From Streptomyces rapamycinicus NRRL 5491 (GTDB taxonomy: Bacteria > Actinomycetota > Actinomycetes > Streptomycetales > Streptomycetaceae), in assembly GCF_024298965.1 (NCBI RefSeq), contig NZ_CP085193.1, positions 9,920,001 through 9,984,000 of the forward strand: a DNA stretch of 64,000 nt, given 5' to 3'. Of the stretch, positions 8,797 to 34,685 are shown in pieces. The stretch's first letter is position 1. Each line of letters opens with the position of its first letter. Position numbers and translations under genes: made by a program. Under the pieces are notes generated by a model. It worked only from the letters and a program-made list of their open reading frames with translations, made no database searches and was not told where the DNA came from.

Positions 8797-8891
8797 GCGA
8801 GACTGCTATCGTTCGGATGGGATTGTCGGTGGTGCGTCGCTGGTGGCTGATTGCAGTCGGTTTAGAGTTATCAGAAACACCGTACTTTGCC

Positions 8892-8897
8892 GGAAGG
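8892..8897 (+). promoter_or_regulatory. Ribosome binding site that decides the rapA-like start
   Basis: GGAAGG lies 7 nt before the ATG at 8905. The in-frame TTG at 8887 would put this Shine-Dalgarno inside the coding sequence and leave no ribosome site of its own, so ATG 8905 is preferred. Confidence 0.75.
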
Positions 8898-8904
8898 TGT
8901 ATTA

Positions 8905-11900: not shown

Positions 11901-12822
11901 TACGGTCCTGATCGCCGACGGAGCAGGCGCCCTGACGGGAACCGTCGCCCGGCATCTGGTGGCCGAACAGGGCGTGCGTCATCTGCTGCTGCTGTCCCGC
12001 AGCACCCCGGACGAAGCACTGATCAACGAGCTGATCGAGTCGGGCGCCCGGGTCGACACGGCGGTCTGTGACGTGTCGGATCGTGCCGGGCTGGTGCGGA
12101 CACTGGCCGGGATAGCACCGGAACGCCCTCTCACCGCAGTGATCCACACCGGCGGTCCCGCCGTTGCCCACGAGAGCCACCAGCTGCACCGCCTCACGAA
12201 AGGCCTCGACCTCGCCGCCTTCGTCGTCTTCAGCCAAGACGCGCCCGCCTCCGTGGACGCCCTCGCCCGGCGCCGCCGCGCCGAAGGCCTGCCGATCACG
12301 GCGATCGCCTGGGGCATACCCGAAGCCGAAGCGGTCGTGGTCAGGGGACCCCTGCTGGGCCGCGCGATGGCTTCCGCCGACTCGGCGCACATCGTCACCC
12401 GTCTGAACACCGTCGGTCTGCGAGCACTGGCCGCGGCCGACACGCTTCCCCCGCTCCTCCAGAACTTGGTCGGTGCGCACACCGACACCACCGAACAGCA
12501 GGCATGGTCGCGGCAGTTCCTAGCCGCGGAGGCTGCCAGAGAACAGGCGTTGCGCGATCTCGTCCGCAGCAGCGTCACGGACATCCTGGGCCTCTCCGCG
12601 GCCGATCGGTACGCCCCTGACAAGACGTTCCGCGAGATGGGCATCGACTCGCTGACCTCGGTGGAACTGCGCAACAGCCTGGCCAAGGCAACGGGTCTGC
12701 GGCTGCCAGCCACGTTGGTGTTCGACTATCCGACCCCGGCCGTGCTCGTCGTCCGGTTGGGGGAGTTGTTCACGGGCGAGAGCCCCGCCCCGGAGCGCGC
12801 GGTGTCGGCGGTGGGGCAAGGC
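8905..12822 (+). other. Loading module: CoA ligase - ER - KR remnant - ACP
   Basis: The CoA-ligase (AMP-forming) domain spans about residues 1-510: YTSGTTGTPKG at 169-179, YRTGDL and GGENIHPHEIE, catalytic-type Lys497 in GKVKRSS. An ER follows (about 10930-11870; ALGTYPGE, NADPH loop HAAAGGVGMAATQ). The ACP carries Ser1249 in MGIDSL. Between ER and ACP lies a KR-like stretch (about 11884-12330) with a damaged loop (ADGAGALTG) and deletions that remove the Lys, Tyr and Asn region. A KR structural half also precedes the ER. In rapamycin and FK506-type systems such a module activates dihydroxycyclohexenecarboxylate, and the ER saturates the ring. There is no loading AT or KSQ. Confidence 0.92.
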
Positions 12823-21800: not shown

Positions 21801-24800
21801 GTGGCAGGGCCTGACCCTGCACGCCGGCAATCCCGGCGAGCTGCGCGTCCGCCTCACCTCACACGATGACGGCACCCTGTCGGCAGAGGCCACCGACAGC
21901 ACAGGCCTCCCCGTCCTGACCGCCCGCTCGCTCACCCTGCGCACCGTCCCCGTATACGAACCGGCCACCAGCACCGACGACCTGCTCACCCTGACCTGGG
22001 CAGGAATCCCCACCCCCCAGCAGACCGGCCTGACGGTGGGTGCGTTTGAAGACCTGGCGGCGGACGGCGATGTGCCGGTACCCGAGGTGGCGGTCTTCAC
22101 CGCACTCCCCGACAGCGACGATCCGCTGGAGCAAACACGAAAGCTGACCGCTCAGGTCCTCCACACACTCCAGGAGTGGCTTGGCGGGGAGCGCTTCAGC
22201 GACAGCACGCTGGTGGTGCGGACCGGCACCGGGTTGGCCGCTGCTGGGGTGTCGGGGTTGATGCGCTCGGCCCAGTCCGAACACCCCGGCCGGTTCGTCC
22301 TGGTCGAAAGCGACGACGCCCTCACCCAGGATCAGCTGGCGGCGGCGGTCGGACTGGATGAGCCGCGGCTGCGGGTCAGCGACGGCCGGTACGAAGTACC
22401 ACGGCTGACCCGCACACATGCCGAAGAGCCTGAGCCTGAAAGGACGTGGGATCCGGATGGCACGGTCCTGATCACGGGCGGTTCAGGTGTGCTGGCGGGG
22501 ATCGCCGCCCGGCACCTGGTGACCGAACGCGGCGTGCGTCATCTCCTGCTGCTGTCCCGCAGCGCCCCGGATGAGGCGCTGATCGGCGAGCTTGGTGAAC
22601 TGGGGGCCCGGGTCGAGACAGCGGCCTGTGACGTGTCCGATCCTGCCGCGCTGACGCAGGTGCTGGCGGGTGTCTCGCCGGAGCATCCCCTGACGGCCGT
22701 GATTCACACCGCGGGCGTGGTGGATGACGGTGTTGTGGAGTCTTTGACCGTGCAGCGGCTGGAGACGGTACTGCGGCCCAAGGCCGACGGTGCGTGGAAC
22801 CTGCACGAGCTCACCCGGGATGCCGACCTGGCCGCGTTCGTCATGTATTCCTCCGCCGCCGGTGTGCTCGGTAGTGCGGGGCAGGGCAACTACGCGGCGG
22901 CCAATGCGTTCCTGGACGCGCTGGCTGAGCAGCGTCACGCTGAGGGTCTGCCCGCACTCGCGGTGGCCTGGGGTCTGTGGGAGGACGCCAGTGGCCTGAC
23001 CGCGCAACTGACCGACACGGACCGTGACCGGATCCGGCGCGGTGGCCTGCGGGCCATCTCCGCCGAGCACGGGATGGGGCTGTTCGACAGCGCGTCACGC
23101 CACAGTGAACCGGTTCTGGTGGCCGCGCCGATGGAGCCGGTACGGGACGCGGAAGTCCCGGCATTGCTGCGGTCGTTGCACCGCCCGATTGCTCGGCGGG
23201 CCGCTGCCGCCGGTGGAGCGCGGTGGCTGGCCGCCCTGGCACCGGCCGAGCGGGAGAAGGCACTGCTGAAGCTGGTGTGTGACAGTGCCGCGACGGTTCT
23301 GGGACACGCCGACACCAGCACCGTCTCCGTAGCCGCCGTGTTCAGGGATCTGGGTGTGGATTCGCTGACTGCGGTGGAACTACGGAACAGTCTGGCGAAG
23401 GCGACGGGGTTGCGGCTGCCCGCCACGTTGGTGTTCGACTATCCGACTCCGACGGCTTTGGCTGTTCGGCTGGGGGAGTTGTTCACCGGCGAGAACCCCG
23501 TACCGGTACGCGGGCCGGTGTCGGCGGTGGCGCAGGACGAGCCGCTGGCGATCGTGGGAATGGCCTGCCGCCTACCTGGTGGAGTCTCGTCGCCTGAGGA
23601 TCTGTGGCGTCTCCTGGAGTCGGGTACAGATGCGGTCTCCGGTTTCCCCACCGACCGTGGCTGGGACGTCGAGAACCTGTACGACATGGCTGGAAAATCG
23701 CACCGTGCTGAGGGTGGCTTCCTGGATGCCGCGGCTGGCTTTGATGCCGGATTCTTCGGCATCAGTCCGCGTGAGGCGTTGGCGATGGATCCGCAGCAGC
23801 GGCTGGTGCTGGAGGTGTCCTGGGAGGCGTTCGAGCGGGCCGGGATCGAGCCCGGTTCCGTGCGCGGCAGCGACACCGGCGTCTTCATGGGCGCGTACCC
23901 CGGTGGTTACGGTGCCGGTGCTGACCTCGGCGGCTTCGCGGCCACCGCCAGCGCGACCAGTGTCCTGTCCGGCCGGGTGTCGTACTTCTTCGGCCTCGAA
24001 GGCCCCGCGTTCACAGTCGACACAGCGTGTTCGTCGTCGCTGGTCGCCCTGCACCAGGCGGGGTATGCCCTCCGGCAGGGAGAGTGCTCGCTGGCCCTGG
24101 TCGGCGGTGTCACCGTGATGGCCACGCCGGAGCTCTTCACCGAGTTCTCGCGGCAGCGTGGTCTGGCCTCCGATGGCCGGTGCAAGGCGTTCGCAGACAG
24201 CGCGGATGGCACGGGATGGGCTGAAGGCGTTGGTGTGCTGCTGGTAGAGCGACTTTCCGACGCCCAGGCCAAGGGCCATCAGGTGTTGGCGGTGGTCCGT
24301 AGCTCGGCGGTCAACCAGGACGGCGCGTCCAACGGTCTGACCGCGCCGAACGGCCCCTCCCAGCAGCGGGTGATCCAAGCCGCTCTCAGTAACGCCGGCC
24401 TCGCCGCGCACGAGGTGGATGTGGTCGAGGCCCACGGCACGGGTACGACGCTGGGCGACCCGATCGAGGCCCAGGCGGTGATCGCCACTTACGGTCAGGA
24501 CCGGGAACGGCCCCTGCTGCTGGGCTCGCTGAAGTCGAACATCGGTCATGCTCAGGCCGCCTCGGGCGTGTCGGGTGTCATCAAGATGGTCATGGCCCTG
24601 CAGCACAACACGGTTCCCCGCACCCTGCACGTGGATGAGCCGTCGCGGCACGTGGACTGGGCGGCGGGTGCGGTTGAGCTGGTGAGGGAGAACCAGCCCT
24701 GGCCCGGCACCGACCGGCCCCGTCGGGCGGGCGTGTCGTCCTTCGGAGTCAGCGGCACCAACGCCCACGTCATCCTGGAGAGCGCACCCCCCGCTCAGCC

Positions 24801-27800
24801 CGCGGAGGAGGCGCAGCCTGTTGAGACGCCGGTGGTGGCCTCGGATGTGCTGCCGCTGGTGATATCGGCCAAGACCCAGCCCGCCCTGACCGAACACGAA
24901 GACCGGCTGCGCGCCTACCTGGCGGCGTCGCCCGGAGTGGATACGCGGGCTGTGGCATCGACGCTGGCGGTGACACGGTCGGTGTTCGAGCACCGCGCCG
25001 TACTCCTTGGAGACGACACCGTCACCGGCACCGCTGTGTCCGATCCCCGGGTGGTGTTTGTTTTCCCGGGGCAGGGGTGGCAGTGGCTGGGGATGGGCAG
25101 TGCGCTGCGGGATTCGTCGGTGGTGTTCGCCGAGCGGATGGCCGAGTGTGCGGCGGCGTTGAGTGAGTTTGTGGACTGGGATCTGTTCACGGTTCTGGAT
25201 GATCCGGCGGTGGTGGACCGGGTTGATGTGGTCCAGCCCGCTTCGTGGGCGGTGATGGTTTCCCTGGCCGCGGTGTGGCAGGCGGCCGGTGTGCGGCCGG
25301 ATGCGGTGATCGGCCATTCGCAGGGTGAGATCGCCGCGGCGTGTGTGGCGGGTGCGGTGTCGTTGCGGGATGCCGCCCGGATCGTGACCTTGCGCAGCCA
25401 GGCGATCGCCCGGGGCCTGGCGGGCCGGGGCGCGATGGCATCCGTCGCCCTGCCCGCGCAGGATGTGGAGCTGGTCGACGGGGCCTGGATCGCCGCCCAC
25501 AACGGTCCCGCCTCCACCGTGATCGCGGGCACCCCGGAAGCGGTCGACCATGTCCTCACCGCTCATGAAGCGCGAGGGGTGCGGGTGCGGCGGATCACCG
25601 TCGACTATGCCTCGCACACCCCTCATGTCGAGCTGATCCGCGACGAACTGCTCGACATCACTAGCGACAGCAGCTCGCAGGCCCCGCTCGTGCCGTGGCT
25701 GTCGACCGTGGACGGCTCCTGGGTCGACAGCCCGCTGGACGGGGAGTACTGGTACCGGAACCTGCGTGAGCCGGTCGGTTTCCACCCCGCCGTCGGCCAG
25801 TTGCAGGCCGAGGGTGACACCGTGTTCGTGGAGGTCAGCGCCAGCCCGGTGTTGTTGCAGGCGATGGACGACGATGTCGTCACGGTTGCCACGCTGCGTC
25901 GTGACGACGGCGACGCCACCCGGATGCTCACCGCCCTGGCACAGGCCTATGTCCACGGCGTCACCGTCGACTGGCCCGCCATCCTCGGCACCGCCACAAC
26001 CCGGGTACTGGACCTTCCGACCTACGCCTTCCAGCACCAGCGGTACTGGCTCAGGAGCGTGGACCGGGCGGCTGCCGACGGTCATCCACTGCTGGGCACC
26101 GTAGTGGCACTGCCCGGCTCCGACGGTGTGGTGCTCACCGGGCGGGTGTCGCTGGCCACCCATACATGGCTGGCCGATCACGCGGTCCGGGGCAGTGTCC
26201 TGCTACCCGGGACCGCATTTGTGGAACTGGTCGTCCGCGCCGCCGACGAGGTCGAGTGCGACGTCGTTGACGAGTTGGTGATCGAAACCCCGCTCCTGCT
26301 GCCGCAGACCGGAGGCGTCCAACTGTCCGTGTCCGTCGGCGGAGCCGACGAGTCCGGGCACCGCGCGGTGATGGTCTTCTCCCAGGCGGACAACACCGAT
26401 ACCTGGACCCGGCACGTCACGGCGACAGTCAGCACCTCTGACTCGACGGTCTCGCTGCCGGAGTTTGCCTCGTGGCCACCAGCCCAGGCCCGGCCGGTGA
26501 GCGTGGCCGACTTCTACGACCGGCTGGCTGCGGCAGGTACCGAGTACGGTCCCGCGTTCCAGGGGCTGCAGGCCGCGTGGCGTGACGGGGACACCGCCTA
26601 CGCCGAGGTTGCTCTGGCCGAGGAGCAGGCGCAGGAGGCGGCACGGTTCGCGGTGCATCCGGCGCTGTTGGACGCCGCCCTGCACGCCAGCGTCTTGAAC
26701 ACACCCGACGCTGAGCAGCAGAGCCTGCGGATGCCGTTCTCCTGGAGCCACGTCCAAGTCCATGCCACTGGCTCGGCCACGCTGCGTGTTGCGATGACAC
26801 CGACAACAGACGGCTGGAGTGTGCACGTCGCCGATGACGACGGTCGGCCGGTGGCCACCATCGGCTCATTCGTGACGCGCCCGGTGACAGCCGACGCGCT
26901 CGGCTCCGCAGCCGATGACCTGCTCAGGGTGGTCTGGACGGAGATCCCCATTCCCCAGCAGACCGGTCTGACCACTGGCCGGTTCGAGGATCTCGTGGAC
27001 GCCGATGTGCCGGTGCCCGAGGTGGTGGTCTACACCGCGCGTCCCGACACCGACGGCAGCCCTGATCCGCTGGCACAGACTCGCACGTTGACCGCCCAGG
27101 TTCTCCAGGCAGTCCAGGCATGGCTGGCCGGGGAACGTTTCACCGACAGCACGCTGGTCGTGCGGACCGGCACCGGGTTGGCCGCCGCCGCGGTGTCAGG
27201 GCTGATGCGTTCGGTCCAGTCGGAGCACCCGGGCCGGTTCGTTCTGGTGGAAGGCGACGACGACACCCTCACCCCGGACCAGCTGGCGGCGACCGCCGGG
27301 CTGGACGAGCCGCGGCTGCGGGTCTGCGACGGCCGGTTCGAGGTACCGCGGCTGGCGCGGGCGAATACGCCGGAGAGCAGCCCGCTGACGATCCCCGACG
27401 ATCGTGCCTGGCTGCTGGAACAACCCCGCAGCGGAACCCTGCAAGACCTCGCTCTGGTACCCACCGACACCGCCGAACGGCCCCTGCGACCCGGCGAAGT
27501 ACGCATAGACGTACGCGCCGCAGGCCTGAACTTCCGCGACGTTCTTATCGCGCTCGGCACTTATCCCGGTGAGGCTGTGATCGGGGCTGAAGCTGCGGGC
27601 GTGGTGCTCGAGGTCGGCCCGGAGGCCCACGACCTGGCCCCGGGAGACCGAGTGTTCGGTCTTGTGGGCGGCGGATTCGGGGCGGTCGCGATCGCCGACC
27701 GTCGAATGCTCGCCGTGATTCCTGATGGCTGGTCGTTCACTACGGCGGCGTCCGTGCCGGTTGTGTTCGCCACCGCGTATTACGGGCTGGTGGATCTGGG

Positions 27801-30800
27801 CGGGCTGAGTGCGGGTGAGTCCGTGCTGATCCACGCCGCCGCGGGTGGTGTGGGCATGGCAGCGACCCAGATCGCTCGCCACCTCGGCGCGCAGATCTAC
27901 GCGACCGCCAGCGCGGGCAAGCAGCACATTCTGTACGAGGCGGGTCTGGACGGCACTCGGATCGCGGATTCCCGCACCACGGGCTTCCGGGAAGCGTTCC
28001 TGAACACTACCGACGGCCGGGGTGTCGATGTCGTCCTGAACTCCCTCAGCGGTGACTTCGTCGACGCCTCCCTCGACCTGCTGCCCCGCGGCGGCCGGTT
28101 CGTGGAAATCGGCAAGACCGACATCCGCGACCCGCACCGGATCACCGCCGACCGGCCCGGCACCACGTACCAGGCGTGCGACCTGATGGACGTCGGCCCG
28201 GACCGGCTGCGGGAGATCATTACCGAAATCCTCAGCCTGTTCGGACAAGGCGTCCTACAGCCGCTGCCCGTACAAACTTGGGACATTCGCCAAGCTCGCG
28301 ATGCGTTCAGCTGGATGAGCCGCGCGCGGCACATCGGCAAGATCGTCCTCACCATCCCCCGCCGGCCGGACCCCGACGGCACCATCCTGATCACCGGCGG
28401 TTCCGGCGTTCTGGCAGGCATCCTCGCCCGCCACCTGGCAGCCGAACACGGTGCACGTCACCTCCTGCTGCTGTCCCGCACCGCTCCCGACGAAGCACTG
28501 ATCAAGGAGCTTGCCGAGCTGGGCGCCCGGGTCGAGACAGCGGCCTGCGACGTGTCGGACCGTGCCGGGCTGGCACGGGTGCTGGCGGGCGTATCACCGG
28601 AACACCCGCTGACGGCGGTGATCCACACCGCCGGCGCACTCGACGACGGCGTCGTGGAATCCCTCACCACACAACAGCTCGACACGGTGCTACGGCCCAA
28701 GGCCGACGGCGCCTGGCACCTACACGAGCTCACCCGGGATGCCGACCTGGCGGCATTCGTCGTGTACTCGTCGGCTGCCGCTGTGCTGGGTAATGAGGGG
28801 CAAGGCAACTACGCGGCGGCGAACGCGTTCCTGGACGCCCTGGCCGAACAACGGCGTACCCAGGGCCTGCCCGCACTCGCGCTGGCGTGGGGTCCGTGGG
28901 AGTACACCGGGGACCTGACCGCGCAACTGACCGGCACCGACCAGGACCGGATCCGGTGCAGCGGCATGCGAACCATCACCGCTGAGGACGGAATGCGGCT
29001 GTTCGACACCGCGTCGCACCATGGCGAACCGCTCTTGGTGCCCGCGGTGTTGGACCCGACCCGAGACGGCGAAGTCCCTGCGTTGCTGCGTTCGTTGCGT
29101 CGCCCGATTGCCCGGCGGGCCGCTTCCGCCGACGGTGGGGTGCAGTGGCTGGCCGCCCTGGCACCGGCCGAGCGGGAGAAGGCGCTGCTGAAGCTGGTGT
29201 GTGACAGTGCCGCCATGGTTCTGGGGCACGCCGACGCACGCAGCATTCCGGCGGCTGGCGCGTTCAAGGATCTGGGTGTGGATTCGCTGATGGCGGTGGA
29301 ACTACGGAACGGTCTGGTGAAGGCGACGGGGTTGCGGTTGCCGGCCACGTTGGTGTTCGACTATCCGACCCCGACGGTCTTGGCTGCTCGGTTGGACGAG
29401 TTGTTCACCGGCGAGAACCCTGCACCGGTACGCGGGCCGGTGTCGGTGGTGGGGCAGGACGAGCCGTTGGCGATTGTGGGTATGGCGTGCCGTTTGCCGG
29501 GTGGGGTGTCGTCGCCGGAGGATCTGTGGCGTTTGGTCGAGTCGGGTACGGATGCGGTCTCCGGATTTCCCACTGACCGTGGCTGGGACGTGGAGAACCT
29601 GTACGACTCTGATCCGGAGGCGGCGGGGAAGTCGTATTGCGTGCAGGGTGGCTTCCTGGACACGGCGGCTGGCTTCGACGCCGGATTCTTCGGGATCAGT
29701 CCGCGTGAGGCGTTGGCGATGGATCCGCAGCAGCGGCTGCTGTTGGAGGTGTCCTGGGAGGCGTTCGAGCGGGCCGGGATCGAGCCCGGTTCCGTACGCG
29801 GCAGCGACACCGGCGTTTTCATAGGGGCATTCCCCGTTGGCTACGGCGCCGGGTTCGATCGCGAAGGTTATGGCGCCACGTCCGGCCCCAGCGTGTTGTC
29901 CGGCCGGGTGTCGTACGTCTTCGGCCTTGAGGGCCCGGCGATCACGATGGACACGGCGTGCTCCTCGTCCCTGGTTGCTTTGCATCTGGCGGCGCAGGCG
30001 TTGCGCAATGGTGAGTGTTCGATGGCGTTGGCCGGTGGTGTGACGGTGATGGCCACGCCGGAGGTCTTCACCGAGTTCGCCCGGCAGCGTGGTCTGGCCT
30101 CCGATGGCCGGTGCAAGGCGTTCGCGGACAGTGCGGACGGTGCCGGTTTCTCCGAAGGCGCGGGTCTGCTGCTGGTCGAGCGGCTGTCCGACGCCCGCCG
30201 TAACGGTCACCAGGTGTTGGCGGTGGTGCGTGGATCGGCGGTGAACCAGGACGGTGCGTCGAACGGTCTGACCGCGCCGAATGGTCCTTCGCAGCAGCGG
30301 GTGATTCGGGCCGCTCTCAGCAATGCGGGTCTGAGTACGGCTGACGTGGATGTGGTCGAGGCGCACGGCACGGGTACGACGCTGGGTGACCCGATCGAGG
30401 CCCAGGCGCTGCTGGCGACCTATGGCCAGGACCGTGAGCAGCCGTTGCTGCTGGGCTCGTTGAAGTCGAACATCGGTCATACGCAGGCTGCCTCGGGTGT
30501 GTCGGGTGTTATCAAGATGGTGATGGCGCTGCGGCACGGTTTCGTGCCGCGCACGTTGCATGTGGATGAGCCGTCGCGGCATGTGGACTGGGCGGCGGGT
30601 GCGGTTGAGCTGGTGAGGGAGAACCAGCCCTGGCCCGGCACCGACCGGCCCCGCCGGGCAGGCGTGTCATCCTTCGGAGTCAGCGGCACCAACGCCCACG
30701 TCGTCCTGGAGAGCGCACCCCCCGCACAGCCCGCGGAAGAGGAGCAGCCTGTTGAGACGCCGGTGGTGGCCTCGGATGTGCTGCCGCTGGTGATATCGGC

Positions 30801-33800
30801 CAAGACCCAGCCCGCCCTGACCGAACACGAAGACCGGCTGCGCGCCTACCTGGCGGCGTCGCCCGGGGCGGATACGCGGGCTGTGGCATCGACGCTGGCG
30901 GTGACGCGGTCGGTGTTCGAGCACCGCGCCGTACTCCTTGGAGATGACGCCGTCACCGGCACCGCGGTGACCGACCCCCGGGTGGTGTTTGTTTTCCCGG
31001 GGCAGGGGTGGCAGTGGCTGGGGATGGGCAGTGCACTGCGGGATTCCTCGGTGGTGTTCGCCGAGCGGATGGCCGAGTGTGCGGCGGCGTTGAGTGAGTT
31101 TGTGGACTGGGATCTGTTCGCCGTGCTGGATGATCCGGCGGTGGTGGACCGGGTTGATGTGGTTCAGCCTGCTTCGTGGGCGGTGATGGTTTCGCTGGCC
31201 GCGGTGTGGCAGGCGGCCGGTGTGCGGCCGGATGCGGTGATCGGTCATTCGCAGGGTGAGATCGCCGCGGCCTGTGTGGCCGGTGCGGTGTCACTACGCG
31301 ATGCCGCCCGGATCGTGACCTTGCGCAGCCAGGCGATCGCCCGGGGCCTGGCGGGCCGGGGCGCGATGGCATCCGTCGCCCTGCCCGCGCACGAGATCGA
31401 GCTGGTCGACGGGGCCTGGATCGCCGCCCACAACGGTCCCGCCTCCACCGTGATCGCGGGCACCCCGGAAGCAGTCGACCATGTCCTCACCGCTCATGAA
31501 GCACGAGGGGTGCGGGTGCGGCGGATCACCGTCGACTATGCCTCGCACACCCCCCACGTCGAGCTGATCCGCGACGAACTACTCGGCATCACCGCCGGTA
31601 TCGGTTCGCAGCCTCCGGTGGTGCCGTGGCTGTCGACGGTGGACGGCTCCTGGGTCGACAGCCCGCTGGACGGGGAGTACTGGTACCGGAACCTGCGTGA
31701 GCCGGTTGGTTTCCACCCCGCCGTCAGTCAGTTGCAGGCTCAGGGCGACGCCGTGTTCGTGGAGGTCAGCGCGAGTCCGGTGTTGTTGCAGGCGATGGAC
31801 GACGATGTCGTCACGGTTGCCACGCTGCGTCGTGACGACGGGGACGCCACCCGGATGCTCACCGCCCTGGCACAGGCCTATGTCCACGGCGTCACCGTCG
31901 ACTGGCCCGCCATCCTCGGCACCACCACGGCCCGGGTGCTGGACCTTCCGACCTACGCCTTCCAACACCAGCGGTACTGGGTCAAGAGCGTGGACCGGGC
32001 GGCTGCGGATGGTCATCCGTTGCTGGGTGCGGTGGTGGAGTTGCCTGAATCCGATGGTGTGCTGTTGACCGGGCGGGTATCGCTGGCCACCCACGCGTGG
32101 CTGGCTGATCACGCGGTCTGGGGCAGTGTCCTGCTGCCCGGTACCGCATTTGTGGAGCTGGTTGTCCACGCCGCTGGCGAGGTCGGTTGTGACGTTGTCG
32201 ATGAGCTGGTGATCGAAACCCCGCTCCTGCTGCCGCAGACCGGCGGTGTGCAATTGTCCGTGTCCGTCGGCGAGGCCGACGAGTCCGGACACCGGGTGGT
32301 GACGGTCTTCTCCCGGGCGGACAACGCCGATACCTGGACCCGGCACGTTTCCGCCACCGTCAGGGTTTCCGACACGACTGTCCCACCGTCGGACCTCACC
32401 GCGTGGCCACCTGCGCAGGCCAAGCCGGTGGACGTGGCGGGCTTCTACGACCAGCTGACCGGGATGGGTTACGAGTACGGACCTGCCTTCCAGGGTTTGC
32501 AGGCCGCGTGGCGTGATGGGGACACTGTCTTCGCCGAGGTTGCTCTGGCTGAGGAGCAGGTGCGGGAGGCGGCGCGATATGCCGTGCATCCGGCTCTACT
32601 GGATGCGGCTCTGCATGCCTGCACCTTGAATGCGTCCGATGCCGAGGTGGGTGTGGGGCTGCCGTTCTCCTGGAACGGTGTTCGGGTCCATGCTGGTGGT
32701 TCGGCCATGTTGCGTGTCGCGGTGACGCAGGCGGCGGATGGCTGGAGTGTGCGGGTCGCTGATGACATCGGTCGGCCGGTGGCTAGCGTGGGTTCGCTCG
32801 TGACGCGCCCGGTGACGGCCGACGCGCTCGGTTCCGCTGCCGATGACCTGCTCGCCTTGACCTGGGCAGGAATCCCCACCCCCCAGCAGACCGGCCTGAC
32901 GGTCGGCCGGTTCGAGGAGCTGGTGTCGGACGGTGATGTGCCGGTGCCCGAGGTGGCGGTCTTCACCGCACTCCCCGACAACGACGACGACCCGCTGGAG
33001 CAAACACGAAAGCTGACCGGTCAGGTCCTCCAGGCAGTTCAGGAGTGGCTTGGCGGGGAGCGCTTCAGCGACAGCACGCTGGTGGTGCGGACCGGTACTG
33101 GTTTGGCCGCTGCTGGGGTGTCGGGGTTGATGCGGTCGGCCCAGTCCGAACACCCCGGCCGGTTCGTCCTGGTCGAGAGTGATGACGACGCCCTCGCTCC
33201 GGATCAGCTGGCGGCGGCGGTCGGACTGGATGAGCCGCGGCTGCGGATCAGCGACGGCCGCTTCGAAGCGCCACGACTGACCCGTACGCATGCCGCTGAA
33301 CCCGAGTCAGAGAAGGTGTGGGATCCGGATGGCACGGTCCTGATCACCGGTGGTTCGGGTGTGCTGGCGGGGATCGCCGCCCGGCACCTGGTGGCCGAAC
33401 GCGGCGTGCGTCATCTCCTTCTGCTGTCCCGCAGCGCCCCGGACGAGGCACTGATCAACCAACTCGGCGAACTGGGAGCCCGGGTCGAGACAGCGGCCTG
33501 TGACGTGTCCGATCGTGCCGCGCTGGCCCAGGTGCTGGCGGGTGTGTCACCGGAGCACCCCCTGACGGCCGTGATTCACACCGCGGGCGCACTCGATGAC
33601 GGTGTGGTCGAATCTTTGACCGCGCAGCGGCTGGACGCGGTGTTGCGGCCCAAGGCCGATGGCGCGTGGAACCTGCACGAGCTCACCCGGGATGCCGACC
33701 TGGCGGCGTTCGTCATGTATTCCTCCGCCGCCGGTGTGCTCGGTAGTGCGGGGCAGGGCAACTACGCGGCGGCCAATGCGTTCGTGGACGCGCTGGCTGA

Positions 33801-34593
33801 GCAGCGTCGTGCCGAGGGTCTGCCCGCACTCGCGGTGGCCTGGGGTCTGTGGGAGGACGCCAGTGGCCTGACCGCGAACCTGACCGACACGGACCGTGAC
33901 CGGATCCGGCGCGGTGGCCTGCGGGCCATCTCCGCCGAGTACGGGATGGGGCTGTTCGACAGCGCGTCACGCCATAGTGAACCGGTTCTGGTGGCCGCGG
34001 CGATGGAGCCGGTACGGGACGCGGAAGTCCCGGCGCTGCTCCGGTCGTTGCACCGGCCGATTGCTCGCAGGGCCGCCTCTACCGGTGACTCGTCAGTGCA
34101 GTGGTTGGCAGCTTTGGCACCGGAGGAACGGGCGAAGGCGTTGTTGAGGGTGGTGTGTGACAGCGCCGCGACGGTTCTGGGACACGCCGACATCGACAGC
34201 ATTCCCGTGACCGCGGCGTTCAAGGATCTGGGTGTGGATTCGCTGACCGCAGTGGAGCTGCGGAACAGTCTGGCGAAGGCGACGGGGCTGCGGCTGCCCG
34301 CCACGTTGGTGTTCGACTACCCCACCCCGACGGCCCTGGCCGCCCGGCTGGACGAGTTGTTCGCTCCGGCGGAGCCGGAACCTCGCCTCCACGAGCAGGA
34401 GCTACGCCGAGCGCTCGCGGGGATCTCGATTGACAAGTTCCGGGAGGCCGGTGTGCTGGACACGCTGCTGAGGCTGGCAGCCATGGAGGGCCTGGCCGTT
34501 CCAAAGCCCGATTCGGAATCCGATGACGAGGCCTTCGTCGATGAGATGGACGCTGACGCTCTCATCAAGCACGTGCTGGAGGAAGAACGATGA
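8905..34593 (+). CDS. rapA: Modular type I polyketide synthase, rapA-like: CoA-ligase loading module plus modules 1-4
   Basis: An 8562-residue PKS subunit that primes and begins the polyketide chain. Order: loading CoA ligase-ER-(KR remnant)-ACP, residues 1-1306; module 1 (KS-AT-DH-ER-KR-ACP), 1307-3290; module 2 (KS-AT-dead DH-KR-ACP), 3291-4878; module 3 (KS-AT-DH-ER-KR-ACP), 4879-6852; module 4 (KS-AT-DH-KR-ACP) and docking tail, 6853-8562. AT motifs give methylmalonyl, malonyl, methylmalonyl, methylmalonyl. The CoL-ER-ACP loading module followed by four such modules is the established layout of RapA, and the length is also close to what I recall for RapA. The start is ATG 8905, preceded by GGAAGG. 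The C-terminal tail (about 8490-8562, acidic and helical, ending ALIKHVLEEER) is a docking domain for the next protein, whose gene overlaps by ATGA. The symbol rests on architecture, not on a sequence search. Confidence 0.95.
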   Translation: MSRAELVRPIYDLLRANAERLGDKIAYVDSRLALTHAELATRTGRIAGHLVDMGVDRGDRVAILLGNRVENIESYLAIARASAVAVPLNPDATEAEVAHFLSDSGAVAVITDSAHLDDVRRTAPAATIVLVGEERTPPGVRSFAELATTEPLRPPRDDLGLDEPAWMLYTSGTTGTPKGVLSTQGSGLWSAAYCDIPAWELTENDVLLWPAPLFHSLALHLCLLATTAVGATARIMNGFVASEVLEELTEHRCTVLVGVPTMFRYLLGAADTFEPRTSSLKMGLVAGSVAPASLIEGFEDVFGVPLLDTYGCTETSGSLTVNWLSGQRIPGSCGLPVPGLSLRFVDPISGADVADGEEGELWASGPSIMIGYHEQPEATAEVLSDGWYRTGDLARRSETGHVTITGRIKELIIRGGENIHPHEIEAVALDVPGVKDAAAAGKQHPVLGEIPVLYVVPETGGVDTDMVLAVCRERLSYFKVPEEIYRVDAIPRTASGKVKRSSLTEKPAELLAGASGGETLHRLEWIPLDPPKQASPDGRHVVVRVDSLPSDAADLAGAVRDLAQSWLADKRRADSTLVFVTRRAVHTGPSDLPVPEHAAAWDAIRREQTENPGVFVVIDVDFDDADPDPDDTLLRALAGLGEPQLALRDGNPLVPRLAHANTADSDSLTIPEDRAWLLEHSRSGTLRDLALVPADTAERPLRPGEVRIAVRAAGLNFRDVLIALGTYPGEGLMGGEAAGVVLEVGPEVHDLTPGDRVFGLVGSAFGAVAITDRRLLGAIPDTWSFATAASIPIVFATAYYGLVDLAGLSAGESVLIHAAAGGVGMAATQIARHLGARIHATASAGKQHILREAGLEDTRIADSRTLAFREAFLNTTDGQGVDVVLNSLSGDFVDASLDLLPRGGRFLEMGKTDIRDADRITADRPGTTYQAFDLLDAGPDRLREIIAELLELFAQGVLRPLPVLTWDIRKARDAFSWMSRARHTGKITFTIPRRLDPDGTVLIADGAGALTGTVARHLVAEQGVRHLLLLSRSTPDEALINELIESGARVDTAVCDVSDRAGLVRTLAGIAPERPLTAVIHTGGPAVAHESHQLHRLTKGLDLAAFVVFSQDAPASVDALARRRRAEGLPITAIAWGIPEAEAVVVRGPLLGRAMASADSAHIVTRLNTVGLRALAAADTLPPLLQNLVGAHTDTTEQQAWSRQFLAAEAAREQALRDLVRSSVTDILGLSAADRYAPDKTFREMGIDSLTSVELRNSLAKATGLRLPATLVFDYPTPAVLVVRLGELFTGESPAPERAVSAVGQGEPLAIVGMACRLPGGVSSPEDLWRLVESGTDAISGFPTDRGWDVDGLFDPDPDASGKSYCVQGGFLDTAAGFDASFFGISPREALAMDPQQRLVLEVSWEAFERAGIEPGSVRGSDTGVFMGGFPGGYGAGADLEGFGATAGAASVLSGRVSYFFGLEGPAITVDTACSSSLVALHQAGYALRQGECSLALVGGVTVMATPQSFVEFSRQRGLSADGRCKAFADAADGTGWAEGVGVLLVERLSDAQAKGHQVLAVVRGSAVNQDGASNGLSAPNGPSQQRVIRAALSNAGLAPHEVDVVEAHGTGTTLGDPIEAQAVIATYGQDREQPVLLGSLKSNIGHAQAAAGVSGVIKMVMALRHGFVPRTLHVDEPSRHVDWSAGAVELVAENRSWPATGRPRRAGVSAFGVSGTNAHVILEGAPAQSVDDAAGSTPVVDSELVPLVVSAKSLPALAEVEGRLRAYLAASPGADVRAVGSTLAVTRSLFEHRAVLLGDDSVTGTGTAVSDPRVVFVFPGQGWQWLGMGSALRTSSMVFAERMAECAAALSEFVDWDLFAVLDDPAVVARVDVVQPASWAVMVSLAAVWQAAGVRPDAVVGHSQGEIAAACVAGAVSLRDAARVVTLRSQVIARGLAGRGAMASVALPAQDVELVDGAWVAARNGPASTVVAGAPEAVDRVLAVHEARGVRVRRIAVDYASHTPHVELIRDELLGVIAGVDSRAPVVPWLSTVDGTWVEGPLDAEYWYRNLREPVGFEPAAGQLQAQGDTVFVEVSASPVLLQAMDDDVVTVATLRRDDGDATRMLTALAQAYVEGVTVDWPAVLGTTAARVLDLPTYAFQHQRYWLKGVDRAAADGHPLLGTVVALPGSDGVVLTGRVSLATHAWLADHAVRGSVLLPGTAFVELVVRAAGEVGCDVVDELVIETPLLLPQTGGVQMSVSVAEADESGHRAVMVFSQADNTDTWTRHVTATVSTSDSTVSQPEFAAWPPAGAEPLDLSDFYDQLTGAGYEYGPAFQGLRTAWRDGNTVFAEVALAEEQAQEAARFAVHPALLDAALHASNLSTLDTAEQGVRLPFSWNQVWVHATGPVMLRVAITRTADGWSVLVADDSGRPVASVGSLVTRVVTADALGSAADELLALTWMEIPAPQGTGLTVGRFEDLVSGGDVPVPEVVVFTALPGSSETPLDPLDPLAQTRTLTAQVLQAVQAWLAGEGFTNSTLVVRTGTGLAAAGVSGLMRSVQSEHPGRFVLVECDDDTLTPDQLAATVGLDEPRLRVCDGRFEVPRLARANTPESSPLTIPDSRAWLLEQPRSGTLRDLALVPTDTAERPLQSGEVRVDVRAAGLNFRDVVVALGMVDDKRLAGGEAAGVVLEVGPEVQDLAPGDRVFGLVGGGFGAVAIADRRMLGVIPDGWSFTTAASVPVVFATAYYGLVDLAGLSAGESVLIHAAAGGVGMAATQIARHLGARIYATASTGKQHILREAGLEDTHIADSRTLSFQETFLNNTHGQGVDVVLNSLSGDFVDASLDLLPRGGRFIEMGKTDIRDPHQVTADRPGTTYQAFDLMDAGPDRLREIITELLTLFTQGVLLPLPVQAWDIRQARDAFSWMSRARHIGKIVLTIPRRPDPDGTILITGGSGVLAGILARHLAAEHGARHLLLLSRTTPDQALIKELAELGAHVDTATCDVSDRAGLARVLAGVSPEHPLTAVIHTAGALDDGVVESLTTQQLDTVLRPKADGAWHLHELTQNTDLAAFVMYSSAAGVLGSAGQGNYAAANAFVDALAEQRRGEGLPALAVAWGLWEDTSGLTAKMTDTDRDRIRRGGLRAISAGRGMGLLDAASRHGEPVLLAASMEPVRDVEVPALLRLLHRPVARRAASTGDSSVQWLARLAPVEREKALLKLVCDGAATVLGHADASTIPATGAFRDLGVDSLTAVELRNGLAKATGLRLPATLVFDYPTPAALAARLEELFTGENPAPVRTSVSVVAQDEPLAIVGMACRLPGGVSSPEDLWRLLESGTDAVSGFPTDRGWDVENLFGPAVGNSYRLQGGFLDAAAGFDASFFGISPREALAMDPQQRLVLEVSWEAFERAGIKPGSVRGTDTGVFMGAYPGGYGIGADLGGFGTTAGAVSVLSGRVSYFFGFEGPAFTVDTACSSSLVALHQAGYALRQGECSLALVGGVTVMATPQTFVEFARQGGLAGDGRSKAFADSADGAGFSEGVGVLLVERLSDARRNGHQVLAVVRGSAVNQDGASNGLTAPNGPSQQRVIRAALSNAGLSTAEVDVVEAHGTGTTLGDPIEAQALMATYGQDREQPLLLGSVKSNLGHTQAAAGVSGVIKMVMALQRGFVPRTLHVDEPSRHVDWSAGAVQLVTENQPWPGTDRPRRAGVSSFGISGTNAHVILESALPTQPAGNTVVESAPEWVPLVISARTQSALAEYEGRLRAYLAASPGADTRAVASTLAMTRSVFEYRAVLIGDDTVTGTAATDPRVVFVFPGQGSQRAGMGEELAAAFPVFARIHQQVWDLLDVPDLDVNETGYAQPALFALQVALFGLLESWGVRPDAVVGHSVGELAAGYVSGLWSLEDACTLVSARARLMQALPAGGVMVAVPVSEDEARAVLGEGVEIAAVNGPSSVVLSGDEAAVLQAAEGLGKWTRLATSHAFHSARMEPMLEEFRAVAEGLTYRTPQVAMAAGDQVMTAEYWVRQVRDTVRFGEQVASFEDAVFVELGADRSLARLVDGIAMLHGDHEAQAAVGALAHLYVNGVSVEWSAVLGDVPVTRVLDLPTYAFQHQRYWLEGTDRATAGGHPLLGSVVRLAEASGVLFTARVSRSGDLWLRDQTVLPATVFVEMALAAADEVGCGLVEDLSVEALLLLPDDGAVEVQTWVGEPDEGGRRRLSVHARYGDGEPWTCLATATLATTTGVAAAAVGWQAGGVWPPAGAVPVGTSAPSLRAVWRLGSDIFAEVALDDAHDATRFVLHPGLMAAALTTVGEETPAVWQGLTLHAGNPGELRVRLTSHDDGTLSAEATDSTGLPVLTARSLTLRTVPVYEPATSTDDLLTLTWAGIPTPQQTGLTVGAFEDLAADGDVPVPEVAVFTALPDSDDPLEQTRKLTAQVLHTLQEWLGGERFSDSTLVVRTGTGLAAAGVSGLMRSAQSEHPGRFVLVESDDALTQDQLAAAVGLDEPRLRVSDGRYEVPRLTRTHAEEPEPERTWDPDGTVLITGGSGVLAGIAARHLVTERGVRHLLLLSRSAPDEALIGELGELGARVETAACDVSDPAALTQVLAGVSPEHPLTAVIHTAGVVDDGVVESLTVQRLETVLRPKADGAWNLHELTRDADLAAFVMYSSAAGVLGSAGQGNYAAANAFLDALAEQRHAEGLPALAVAWGLWEDASGLTAQLTDTDRDRIRRGGLRAISAEHGMGLFDSASRHSEPVLVAAPMEPVRDAEVPALLRSLHRPIARRAAAAGGARWLAALAPAEREKALLKLVCDSAATVLGHADTSTVSVAAVFRDLGVDSLTAVELRNSLAKATGLRLPATLVFDYPTPTALAVRLGELFTGENPVPVRGPVSAVAQDEPLAIVGMACRLPGGVSSPEDLWRLLESGTDAVSGFPTDRGWDVENLYDMAGKSHRAEGGFLDAAAGFDAGFFGISPREALAMDPQQRLVLEVSWEAFERAGIEPGSVRGSDTGVFMGAYPGGYGAGADLGGFAATASATSVLSGRVSYFFGLEGPAFTVDTACSSSLVALHQAGYALRQGECSLALVGGVTVMATPELFTEFSRQRGLASDGRCKAFADSADGTGWAEGVGVLLVERLSDAQAKGHQVLAVVRSSAVNQDGASNGLTAPNGPSQQRVIQAALSNAGLAAHEVDVVEAHGTGTTLGDPIEAQAVIATYGQDRERPLLLGSLKSNIGHAQAASGVSGVIKMVMALQHNTVPRTLHVDEPSRHVDWAAGAVELVRENQPWPGTDRPRRAGVSSFGVSGTNAHVILESAPPAQPAEEAQPVETPVVASDVLPLVISAKTQPALTEHEDRLRAYLAASPGVDTRAVASTLAVTRSVFEHRAVLLGDDTVTGTAVSDPRVVFVFPGQGWQWLGMGSALRDSSVVFAERMAECAAALSEFVDWDLFTVLDDPAVVDRVDVVQPASWAVMVSLAAVWQAAGVRPDAVIGHSQGEIAAACVAGAVSLRDAARIVTLRSQAIARGLAGRGAMASVALPAQDVELVDGAWIAAHNGPASTVIAGTPEAVDHVLTAHEARGVRVRRITVDYASHTPHVELIRDELLDITSDSSSQAPLVPWLSTVDGSWVDSPLDGEYWYRNLREPVGFHPAVGQLQAEGDTVFVEVSASPVLLQAMDDDVVTVATLRRDDGDATRMLTALAQAYVHGVTVDWPAILGTATTRVLDLPTYAFQHQRYWLRSVDRAAADGHPLLGTVVALPGSDGVVLTGRVSLATHTWLADHAVRGSVLLPGTAFVELVVRAADEVECDVVDELVIETPLLLPQTGGVQLSVSVGGADESGHRAVMVFSQADNTDTWTRHVTATVSTSDSTVSLPEFASWPPAQARPVSVADFYDRLAAAGTEYGPAFQGLQAAWRDGDTAYAEVALAEEQAQEAARFAVHPALLDAALHASVLNTPDAEQQSLRMPFSWSHVQVHATGSATLRVAMTPTTDGWSVHVADDDGRPVATIGSFVTRPVTADALGSAADDLLRVVWTEIPIPQQTGLTTGRFEDLVDADVPVPEVVVYTARPDTDGSPDPLAQTRTLTAQVLQAVQAWLAGERFTDSTLVVRTGTGLAAAAVSGLMRSVQSEHPGRFVLVEGDDDTLTPDQLAATAGLDEPRLRVCDGRFEVPRLARANTPESSPLTIPDDRAWLLEQPRSGTLQDLALVPTDTAERPLRPGEVRIDVRAAGLNFRDVLIALGTYPGEAVIGAEAAGVVLEVGPEAHDLAPGDRVFGLVGGGFGAVAIADRRMLAVIPDGWSFTTAASVPVVFATAYYGLVDLGGLSAGESVLIHAAAGGVGMAATQIARHLGAQIYATASAGKQHILYEAGLDGTRIADSRTTGFREAFLNTTDGRGVDVVLNSLSGDFVDASLDLLPRGGRFVEIGKTDIRDPHRITADRPGTTYQACDLMDVGPDRLREIITEILSLFGQGVLQPLPVQTWDIRQARDAFSWMSRARHIGKIVLTIPRRPDPDGTILITGGSGVLAGILARHLAAEHGARHLLLLSRTAPDEALIKELAELGARVETAACDVSDRAGLARVLAGVSPEHPLTAVIHTAGALDDGVVESLTTQQLDTVLRPKADGAWHLHELTRDADLAAFVVYSSAAAVLGNEGQGNYAAANAFLDALAEQRRTQGLPALALAWGPWEYTGDLTAQLTGTDQDRIRCSGMRTITAEDGMRLFDTASHHGEPLLVPAVLDPTRDGEVPALLRSLRRPIARRAASADGGVQWLAALAPAEREKALLKLVCDSAAMVLGHADARSIPAAGAFKDLGVDSLMAVELRNGLVKATGLRLPATLVFDYPTPTVLAARLDELFTGENPAPVRGPVSVVGQDEPLAIVGMACRLPGGVSSPEDLWRLVESGTDAVSGFPTDRGWDVENLYDSDPEAAGKSYCVQGGFLDTAAGFDAGFFGISPREALAMDPQQRLLLEVSWEAFERAGIEPGSVRGSDTGVFIGAFPVGYGAGFDREGYGATSGPSVLSGRVSYVFGLEGPAITMDTACSSSLVALHLAAQALRNGECSMALAGGVTVMATPEVFTEFARQRGLASDGRCKAFADSADGAGFSEGAGLLLVERLSDARRNGHQVLAVVRGSAVNQDGASNGLTAPNGPSQQRVIRAALSNAGLSTADVDVVEAHGTGTTLGDPIEAQALLATYGQDREQPLLLGSLKSNIGHTQAASGVSGVIKMVMALRHGFVPRTLHVDEPSRHVDWAAGAVELVRENQPWPGTDRPRRAGVSSFGVSGTNAHVVLESAPPAQPAEEEQPVETPVVASDVLPLVISAKTQPALTEHEDRLRAYLAASPGADTRAVASTLAVTRSVFEHRAVLLGDDAVTGTAVTDPRVVFVFPGQGWQWLGMGSALRDSSVVFAERMAECAAALSEFVDWDLFAVLDDPAVVDRVDVVQPASWAVMVSLAAVWQAAGVRPDAVIGHSQGEIAAACVAGAVSLRDAARIVTLRSQAIARGLAGRGAMASVALPAHEIELVDGAWIAAHNGPASTVIAGTPEAVDHVLTAHEARGVRVRRITVDYASHTPHVELIRDELLGITAGIGSQPPVVPWLSTVDGSWVDSPLDGEYWYRNLREPVGFHPAVSQLQAQGDAVFVEVSASPVLLQAMDDDVVTVATLRRDDGDATRMLTALAQAYVHGVTVDWPAILGTTTARVLDLPTYAFQHQRYWVKSVDRAAADGHPLLGAVVELPESDGVLLTGRVSLATHAWLADHAVWGSVLLPGTAFVELVVHAAGEVGCDVVDELVIETPLLLPQTGGVQLSVSVGEADESGHRVVTVFSRADNADTWTRHVSATVRVSDTTVPPSDLTAWPPAQAKPVDVAGFYDQLTGMGYEYGPAFQGLQAAWRDGDTVFAEVALAEEQVREAARYAVHPALLDAALHACTLNASDAEVGVGLPFSWNGVRVHAGGSAMLRVAVTQAADGWSVRVADDIGRPVASVGSLVTRPVTADALGSAADDLLALTWAGIPTPQQTGLTVGRFEELVSDGDVPVPEVAVFTALPDNDDDPLEQTRKLTGQVLQAVQEWLGGERFSDSTLVVRTGTGLAAAGVSGLMRSAQSEHPGRFVLVESDDDALAPDQLAAAVGLDEPRLRISDGRFEAPRLTRTHAAEPESEKVWDPDGTVLITGGSGVLAGIAARHLVAERGVRHLLLLSRSAPDEALINQLGELGARVETAACDVSDRAALAQVLAGVSPEHPLTAVIHTAGALDDGVVESLTAQRLDAVLRPKADGAWNLHELTRDADLAAFVMYSSAAGVLGSAGQGNYAAANAFVDALAEQRRAEGLPALAVAWGLWEDASGLTANLTDTDRDRIRRGGLRAISAEYGMGLFDSASRHSEPVLVAAAMEPVRDAEVPALLRSLHRPIARRAASTGDSSVQWLAALAPEERAKALLRVVCDSAATVLGHADIDSIPVTAAFKDLGVDSLTAVELRNSLAKATGLRLPATLVFDYPTPTALAARLDELFAPAEPEPRLHEQELRRALAGISIDKFREAGVLDTLLRLAAMEGLAVPKPDSESDDEAFVDEMDADALIKHVLEEER
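12823..18774 (+). other. PKS module 1: KS-AT(methylmalonyl)-DH-ER-KR-ACP
   Basis: KS active Cys1474 (tgc 13324-13326) in DTACSSS. AT GHSQGE near 14608 and YASH at 14902-14913 indicate methylmalonyl-CoA. DH motif HAVRGSVLLP at 15475-15504. ER about 16690-17670, reading ALGMVDD where the other three ERs read ALGTYPG. KR about 17683-18330 with LDD (B-type) and YSSAAGVLGSAGQGNY intact. ACP Ser codon at 18598-18600 in LGVDSL. Full reduction of the starter-derived carbonyl fits the C36 methylene of rapamycin, and the extender fits the C35 methyl. Confidence 0.92.
16921..21010 (+). repeat. Direct duplication, copy 1 (module 1 ER-KR-ACP to module 2 KS-AT)
   Basis: Aligns to 48492-52581 at a constant offset of 31571. 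The duplicated unit crosses a module boundary: ER (part), KR, ACP, then the next KS and AT. Similarity is strongest at the start of the ER block, in the KR-ACP end (from about 18240) and across KS-AT. Confidence 0.8.
18775..23538 (+). other. PKS module 2: KS-AT(malonyl)-DH(inactive)-KR-ACP
   Basis: The KS carries DTACSSS and HGTGT. AT GQGSQ, GHSVGE and HAFH (20791-20802) indicate malonyl-CoA. At about 21290-21346 the DH-like region reads [15 protein letters not shown], without the HxxxGxxxxP catalytic motif. KR about 22450-23100 has intact Ser/Tyr/Asn and VDD. ACP LGVDSL near 23350. The outcome is a beta-hydroxyl, matching the C34 oxygen that forms the macrolactone. The AT-to-KR stretch recurs almost unchanged, inverted, in module 11. 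Confidence 0.92.
20558..22537 (+). repeat. Inverted near-copy, arm B (module 2 AT-DH-KR)
   Basis: Partner of 1-1980 in the opposite orientation, about 18.5 kb away. It covers the end of the malonyl AT, the inactive DH and the start of the KR. The partner continues beyond the left window edge, so the full length of the pair is unknown. Confidence 0.88.
23539..29460 (+). other. PKS module 3: KS-AT(methylmalonyl)-DH-ER-KR-ACP
   Basis: AT YASH at 25606-25617. DH motif starts with His codon 26179-26181 (HAVRGSVLLP). ER about 27380-28350 (ALGTYPGE, GGVGMAATQ). KR about 28369-29090 with [27 protein letters not shown] and AAANAF. The ACP reads LGVDSLMAVELRN. Every reductive motif I can check is present, yet rapamycin keeps a ketone at the carbon this module would reduce (C32). 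The KR C-terminal half diverges from its siblings (WGPWEYTGDL; RCSGMRTI against RRGGLRAI elsewhere), a possible cause of inactivity. Confidence 0.9.
23900..26180 (+). repeat. KS-AT near-copy family (module 3 copy; others in modules 6 and 10)
   Basis: The KS second half and methylmalonyl AT recur at 39835-42115 (module 6, offset 15935) and, for the AT part, at about 61478-62520 (module 10, offset 36563). Identical rare stretches, such as GACATCACTAGCGACAGC in the AT, are present in all three. Confidence 0.78.
32109..33900 (+). repeat. DH-KR near-copy (module 4; partner in module 9 at 57794-59585)
   Basis: Constant offset of 25685 over about 1.8 kb, covering most of the DH and the KR structural and catalytic halves. 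Small patches differ, for example around 58540-58640. It ends with a 6-nt indel after the KR. Confidence 0.78.
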
Positions 34594-34685
34594 GGGAAGA
34601 TCAGCTTCTCGACGCATTGCGCAAGTCGGTCAAGGAGAACGCGCGGCTCCGCAAGGCGAACACGTCGTTGCGGGCAGCCATGGAC
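34366..34685 (+). other. Docking-domain pair across the rapA/rapB junction
   Basis: The upstream protein ends with a tail of about 75 residues predicted helical, with an acidic linker (DSESDDEAFVDEMDADA) and terminal HVLEEER. The downstream protein starts with 32 residues of alternating charged and leucine positions (LLDALRKSVKENARLRK). This is the usual C-/N-terminal docking pair of actinobacterial PKSs, ensuring transfer from ACP4 to KS5. Confidence 0.8.
34578..34593 (+). promoter_or_regulatory. ATGA stop/start overlap with internal RBS joining the rapA-like and rapB-like genes
   Basis: GGAGG (34578-34582) lies 7 nt before ATG 34590. The ATG shares two bases with the TGA stop of the upstream PKS (34591-34593). 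This is a translational coupling junction and should keep the two PKS subunits near equal amounts. Confidence 0.85.

Follow-up and report, generated by a model that had tools for sequence, protein, structure and literature searches.

A shared active-site stretch in two rapamycin ketosynthases suggests that evolution matches each ketosynthase to the chemistry it receives, and is not a general keto code in the sample examined

The rapamycin synthase locus and the tract common to KS4 and KS7

The 64,000 nucleotides of DNA analysed here (positions 9920001-9984000 of the 12.5 Mb genome of Streptomyces rapamycinicus NRRL 5491; hereafter, the window) hold the rapamycin polyketide synthase (PKS), and our subject is a tract around the active site that is common to two of its ketosynthases (KSs), KS4 and KS7, and that appears to be kept in step by gene conversion under a constraint set by the chemistry of the incoming chain. 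On the plus strand, rapA (8887..34593; open reading frame (ORF), Pfam domains and domain hidden Markov models (HMMs)) encodes a CoA-ligase-type loading region and modules 1-4, and rapB (34590..64000; ORF and domain HMMs) encodes modules 5-10 and continues beyond the end of the window; on the minus strand, a RapP-sized ORF (3891-8519) lies beside the start of rapC, which is also within the window. Eleven KS active sites are found inside the window and 14 in total once the adjoining stretch of rapC is included. The assignment to the rapamycin PKS rests on these 14 KSs distributed over three proteins, the CoA-ligase loading region, the extender pattern and the RapP-sized ORF next to rapC, the protein sizes (including that of RapP) and the product chemistry being background knowledge of the system.

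KS4 (29443..30723, plus strand; residue n of KS4 starts at window position 29443+3(n-1)) takes the product of module 3, and KS7 (44364..45644, plus strand; domain HMMs and KS extraction) takes that of module 6. Each carries the hallmarks of an elongating cis-AT type I ketosynthase, namely the DTACSSS nucleophile motif, HGTGT, SNIGH or SNVGH, and an acyltransferase (AT) and acyl carrier protein (ACP) in the same module. By the structure of rapamycin, these two are presumably the only KSs of the synthase to receive alpha-methyl beta-keto chains (the C32 and C26 ketones); the alpha-methyl groups fit the GHSQG motif present in both upstream ATs, AT3 and AT6.

The earlier note on this DNA had drawn attention to active-site motifs common to KS4 (Cys codon 29959..29961, plus strand) and KS7 (44880..44882, plus strand), with GVFIGAFPVGYG upstream, and to near-identical DNA blocks at an offset of 14921; both observations are reproduced when the sequence is read again and the offset recomputed. 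At this offset identity is 93.8% over 29880-30250, the extent proposed for the block, and 296 of 302 bases agree over 29899-30200, so that the block is indeed shared and yet ends near 30200 rather than 30250. We therefore define the active-site tract as 29899..30200 in KS4 and 44820..45121 in KS7 (both plus strand); it includes an exact run of 170 bases beginning at 29935, and its flanks are in both KSs a mosaic of other rapamycin KSs. Among the latter the best match to the tract is KS11 (82.8%, blastn), and single 120-base windows of the tract reach up to 89% in others. All nine other KSs of the window read TVDTACSSS as had been claimed, and eight of the nine carry the second majority motif, KS9 having LIGG instead. 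Outside the window, KS12 and KS13 are of the majority type, and KS14, which follows a module with dehydratase (DH), enoylreductase (ER) and ketoreductase (KR) domains, reads HLASQALRQRE and is partly KS4/KS7-like.

Two residues that set KS4 and KS7 apart deserve mention here. Met169, four residues N-terminal of the active Cys, is encoded at 29947..29949 in KS4, its KS7 equivalent at 44868..44870, and Val132 ends the dimer-interface loop AFPV (29827..29838 in KS4 and 44748..44759 in KS7, all on the plus strand), which corresponds to positions 1-4 of the gatekeeping motif described in PMC11321453, as placed by alignment. A search for a donor of the tract in 392 Streptomyces genomes (best two candidates each) gave no close source, the best match outside rapamycin being 82%; because this is no better than rapamycin KS11 (83%), import of the tract is indistinguishable from retention. 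A foreign-codon origin was rejected, third-position GC being ordinary, and a GRINS-like skew was likewise rejected as a feature of KS4 and KS7, since it is not special to them.

Concerted change between two species and the chemistry of the incoming chain

The comparison with S. iranensis DSM 41954, for which rapamycin production has been reported from liquid chromatography-mass spectrometry (data not shown in PMC4102860), allows one to ask which parts of KS4 and KS7 have evolved together. In that species both KSs retain AFPV, TMD and LAAQALRNGE. Taking as concerted those sites at which KS4 equals KS7 within each species and the species differ, and as orthologous those with the reverse pattern, we find nine concerted sites against one orthologous site in the tract, compared with 22 and 53 over the remainder of the KS (Fisher p=0.0004). 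Eight of the nine concerted sites of the tract are third codon positions, and at residue 194 the two KSs agree within each species, one species having Met and the other Leu. The segment 29779-29898, which holds the loop, is orthologous (by subtraction, one concerted site against 16), and the AFPV loop is kept in all four copies even though the DNA encoding it differs between KS4 and KS7. The two KSs thus behave as a gene-conversion pair would: over a delimited stretch, each resembles its paralogue in the same genome more than its counterpart in the other species. KR3 and KR6 show no special resemblance (79.2% identity, against 78.3-87.3% between KR3 and the other KRs), and the match between KS4 and KS7 is therefore not simply that of a copied module.

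Does this pairing follow the substrate? Twelve rapamycin KSs were labelled by the alpha and beta chemistry of the incoming chain, as given by the rapamycin structure. Identity within classes exceeds that between classes for the whole KS (p=0.0002) and for the central 120 residues, 60 on each side of the Cys (p=0.0002), and the grouping persists when KS4 and KS7 are left out (p=0.001). For the central 120 residues, none of the rival labels is explanatory, be it the subunit (p=0.90), the KS's own extender (0.14), alpha chemistry alone (0.09) or the list of upstream domains (0.15). By segment, the grouping is strongest in the central KS (p=0.0002), followed by the C-terminal (0.009) and N-terminal (0.05) parts. 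KS2 and KS8, KS6 and KS13, and KS4 and KS7 are mutual nearest neighbours among the rapamycin KSs, and the nearest relative of KS4 is KS7 rather than KS2 or KS8 despite the full DH-ER-KR module upstream of KS4.

The same classes reappear when the two species are compared for the 10 KSs with both orthologues. In the tract, the concerted fraction is 0.43 within a chemistry class and 0.035 between classes (p=0.001), in the central KS 0.28 and 0.03 (p=0.001), in the N-terminal part 0.42 and 0.13 (p=0.004), and in the C-terminal part 0.25 and 0.14 (p=0.05), with no class effect in the KS-AT linker and the start of the AT (0.34 and 0.26, p=0.28). Among the eight most concerted pairs for the tract, none joins KS4 or KS7 to another KS. 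KS-substrate matching inside the rapamycin synthase is thus supported, as a correlation; the earlier proposal that KSs are matched to the upstream redox state stands to this extent (p=0.0002) and does not amount to a general code.

As a separate observation, KS6 (39447-40727) and KS13 (rapC), each of which receives a beta-hydroxy, alpha-H chain, share 97.7% identity, and with 16 concerted sites against none in the tract are a more extreme case than KS4 and KS7.

The hypothesis that appears to accommodate these findings best, to which we give a probability of roughly 0.55, is that gene conversion, constrained by incoming chemistry, keeps the KS4/KS7 tract alike. Under this scenario, KS4 and KS7 would be elongating ketosynthases of the ordinary kind in which a tract of some 100 residues, starting 20 residues ahead of the nucleophilic Cys and extending 80 beyond it, is homogenised between the two by gene conversion, while other parts of the KS and AT domains would be exchanged more freely among the modules of the synthase. 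Selection for acceptance of the incoming chain might then let conversions persist mainly between KSs of the same alpha/beta chemistry, and the tract would probably be tuned to, or at least compatible with, the alpha-methyl beta-keto substrate. A bolder version, in which conversions near the KS active site are fixed almost exclusively within same-chemistry modules, the tract with Met169 and Val132 reflects selected alpha-methyl beta-keto fit, and two-species maps of concerted evolution reveal KS specificity classes, is tentative, and we would sooner expect it to fail than to hold.

Several facts weigh against the hypothesis of chemically constrained conversion, beyond the fact that the class labels are derived from the rapamycin structure. 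Over the whole KS, rival labels reach low values too (own extender p=0.01, alpha alone 0.02, upstream domain list 0.03, the last label being a simplification that omits the short DHs of modules 2, 5, 11 and 12 and ignores activity), which leaves only the central part of the KS as a clean case. Outside the KS, class grouping is also seen in the upstream KR and ACP (p=0.015-0.016), the KS-AT linker (0.02) and the AT (0.07). KS12, which receives a beta-hydroxy chain, is nearest to the fully reduced receivers KS2 and KS8, the nearest neighbours of KS5, KS9 and KS10 lie in other classes, and the beta-keto receivers of the synthase number only two. Concerted change between KS4 and KS7 extends beyond the tract into the N-terminal part of the KS (29443..29778, plus strand; 10 sites against two), a part that is nevertheless also similar to several other rapamycin KSs. 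The concerted-fraction test lacks KS2 and KS3 of S. iranensis, and its class effect leans on two pairs, p rising to 0.09-0.10 without KS6 and KS13, to 0.02 without KS4 and KS7, and to 0.008-0.03 without single members. Finally, tolerance ascribed to the Phe at loop position 2 is the reported ground for the use of RapKS4 in earlier work (PMC10402262). We take RapKS4 to be the KS4 of this work, which has Phe at that position where KS5 has Tyr; some doubt about the numbering arises from the statement in the same text that the KSs of the last two modules lack the aromatic residue, since KS13 here has Tyr. The emphasis there is on tolerance beyond the beta carbon, and KS7 and the shared tract go unmentioned in the part available to us.

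A further tract is common to modules 3 and 6, covering the KR3-ACP3 linker and the start of ACP3 (29059..29240, plus strand) and its partner in module 6 (KR6-ACP6 linker and start of ACP6, 43980..44161, plus strand), with 91-97% identity in windows from 29059 and 29119 and 18 concerted against seven orthologous sites. This is what would be expected if the linker and KS tracts co-adapted for the recognition of ACP3 by KS4 and of ACP6 by KS7 rather than for substrate; yet it is the KS tract that contains the nucleophile, and the ACP segment taken in full is unremarkable, modules 3 and 6 ranking 19 of 45 pairs, so that we consider such a docking fit improbable. Apart from this, the ACP of rapC module 11, which precedes KS12, reads GINSL where the other readable rows have GxDSL and S. 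iranensis has GIDSL, that is, an Asp to Asn change adjoining the phosphopantetheine Ser.

KS gatekeeping families of cis-AT PKSs were reportedly described by Hirsch, Fitzgerald and Keatinge-Clay in 2021. As in the families presented in the accessible portion of PMC11321453, KS sequence in rapamycin fits the alpha/beta chemistry set upstream and the dimer-interface loop is variable; unlike the VMYH and TNGQ families of that source, the rapamycin KSs have neither motif, and the AFPV of KS4 and KS7 is unmatched among the other presumed beta-keto receivers examined here. The within-pathway substrate subclusters of cis-AT KSs cited in the available text of PMC13347036 resemble the grouping in rapamycin, to which the evidence of conversion from two species is added here. 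Gene conversion is known to homogenise the KS and AT domains of rapamycin, and in the part of PMC4256081 (2014) available to us KS conversions were suggested to be less neutral, with KS sequences differing in fit. The speculation in that text concerns chain length, whereas the barrier found here follows alpha/beta chemistry, the chains received by KS4 and KS7 differing by three extensions; moreover, in the comparison of S. rapamycinicus with S. iranensis it is strongest in the central KS and absent in the KS-AT linker and the start of the AT. No prior report of the KS4-KS7 tract was found in a literature search that did not cover Schwecke 1995 or Hirsch 2021. The tract is best read as a fresh example of known principles, with conversion constrained by chemistry. 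If this is true, the record of recent conversions would show engineers, without an assay, what KSs can stand in for one another and what residues are best not touched, and would help to explain the fidelity of an assembly line whose modules are continually homogenised; the tract and the two rare residues would offer a limited number of features on which to test beta-keto acceptance in a synthase that makes a drug.

The tract outside rapamycin and the question of a general keto subtype

How private is the KS4/KS7 sequence? We compiled 413 KS rows from 195 ORFs, each annotated with the domains of the preceding module and drawn from the S. rapamycinicus genome itself (11 regions), S. iranensis, an FK506/FK520-type cluster and other PKSs in genome G361, and loci L011-L087. 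The procedure recovered known motifs, VMYH in 26 of 83 non-rapamycin KSs after DH-KR and TNGQ in 23 of 52 after KR. The block motif of KS4 and KS7, HLAAQALRNGEC, occurs exactly in 30 of 380 unique non-rapamycin KSs, and 26 of these carriers are preceded by a KR-bearing module (16 follow DH-KR, seven ER and three KR; a further three are first in their protein and one follows a loading module). The 12-residue majority motif of the rapamycin KSs has no exact match among the same 380, and we therefore conclude that the KS4/KS7 sequence of this block is common among actinomycetes and it is the other rapamycin KSs that are unusual. The notion of a private KS subtype tied to unreduced chains is thus mostly false: for the block, the finding that the earlier note would accept as a refutation, the same sequence after reducing modules elsewhere, is at hand. 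Rare elsewhere are only Met at residue 169 (one of 387 other KS rows, which include three rapamycin KSs of locus L011) and Val at residue 132 (two of 387), neither being seen after KR-bearing modules outside rapamycin, an observation of little weight at such small numbers. In a class-level draw of 394 genomes (four candidates scored in each), the S. rapamycinicus genome itself was the one match at E<=1e-212 in a search for further rapamycin-type KSs, a result for this draw that makes no case for their absence elsewhere. No loading-region match in two Micromonospora genomes exceeds 54%.

This distribution lends itself to a neutral explanation, in which an old tract of the generic type, having survived in or entered one of the two KSs, passed to its partner by a chance conversion, chemistry being irrelevant. 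Residues 167-211 of KS4 are as close to unrelated KSs as to those of rapamycin, the block motif is found after all kinds of modules, a single pair picked post hoc from 66 carries little weight by itself, and the class effect depends on KS6 and KS13. Such a neutral mosaic has difficulty with the class grouping that persists without KS4 and KS7 and peaks beside the Cys, with the lack of any pairing of KS4 or KS7 with another KS among the most concerted pairs, and with the conservation of the loop residues while the loop DNA drifts. We regard it as unlikely, if a serious contender.

A second possibility is a general beta-keto KS subtype that recurs across synthases, for which the earlier note suggested asking whether KSs after beta-keto modules cluster in a tree that includes those of FK506/FK520. 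The cluster in G361 was labelled as FK506/FK520-type by its 4+2+4 module layout, CoA-ligase loading region and KR-less module 4, in which HMMs built from the rapamycin domains found no KR; its KS5, which follows this module, reads GFYY, TVD and HQAGQ. In the whole sample, 22 KSs after KR-less modules were found, and removal of six that follow KSQ loading modules and one unclear case left 15, for which delivery of a beta-keto chain is presumed and a very divergent KR could have escaped the HMMs. Met169 and Val132 are absent from all 15, which follow extension modules. In a tree of 75 rows, KS4 and KS7 of both species form a clade (support 100) within the rapamycin clade, the FK506/FK520-type KS5 falls within its own clade, and the remaining KSs after KR-less modules are scattered over several places, well-supported branches forcing at least seven changes; a joint clade of the rapamycin keto KSs and the FK506/FK520-type KS5 is rejected (p-AU 0.0012). 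Furthermore, according to the accessible part of PMC13347036, a published classifier could not separate receivers of beta-keto chains from those of methylene or L-alcohol chains, other ketone pairings being separable. On the other side, the keto label is somewhat clustered on the tree (11 changes against a shuffle mean of 17.6, with none of 500 shuffles as low), a clustering that near-copies can produce, and Pro149 is present in KS4 and KS7, in the FK506/FK520-type KS5 and in five of the 15 KSs after KR-less modules (four of them near-copies), as well as in three of 31 other rapamycin and FK506/FK520-type KSs. In this sample, then, the KS4/KS7 stretch does not act as a keto code of general validity, and a recurring subtype is hardly tenable.

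Among the KSs after KR-less modules, those of loci L013, L019, L034 and L084, which follow AT-DH-ACP modules without a detected KR, form a tight clade and have in common a VTYQ or TTYQ loop and HLAWQALRQGEC.

Ketone retention and the reductive domains of modules 3 and 6

The earlier note went further and envisaged a gate, by which KS4 and KS7 pick beta-keto chains and remove them before working reductive domains act. The DH-ER-KR loop of module 3 (26074..29022, plus strand) indeed has DH and ER signature motifs and a full set of KR catalytic residues, and KR3 (28360-29022) looks catalytically intact in both rapamycin producers; in S. iranensis, the reported rapamycin maker (PMC4102860), its lid looks normal as well. 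Inactivation of KR3 by the lid changes seen in S. rapamycinicus (WGPWEYTG) was for this reason rejected as an explanation. The location of Val132 in a published gatekeeping loop also speaks for a gate. Against it stands an experiment described in PMC7419507, in which the module 3 loop is called inactive and its replacement by the module 7 loop yielded 32-desketorapamycin, confirmed by nuclear magnetic resonance: the chain thus stays in place while a working loop acts on it, and KS4 lets reduced chains through without getting ahead of such a loop. This argues against strict exclusion of reduced chains by KS4, as does the described tolerance of RapKS4 (PMC10402262).

In module 6, neither species has retained the catalytic Tyr of KR6 (43326..43943, plus strand). 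In S. rapamycinicus it has become Leu (codon 43773), together with a change of Asn to Thr, and in S. iranensis Phe; a deletion in the lid region is common to both. Among 12 KRs, the ratio of nonsynonymous to synonymous substitution rates (dN/dS) is highest for KR3 (0.25), with KR5 (0.24) and KR6 (0.22) close behind. A strict gate at KS4 and KS7 is accordingly unlikely, and we hold the removal of chains ahead of working reductive domains to be very improbable. In terms of the hypothesis of chemically constrained conversion, retention of the ketones would not be caused by the tract at all, but by the loss of the catalytic Tyr from KR6 and by the silence of the module 3 loop. The silence of the intact-looking KR3 is a concrete puzzle, given that C32 stays a ketone.

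A last observation concerns the dehydratases. DH5 (37152-37871) and the rapC domains DH11 and DH12 align over a shorter length (about 238 residues), and among the 12 DHs compared their dN/dS is the highest (0.28-0.39), in agreement with modules that leave a hydroxyl.
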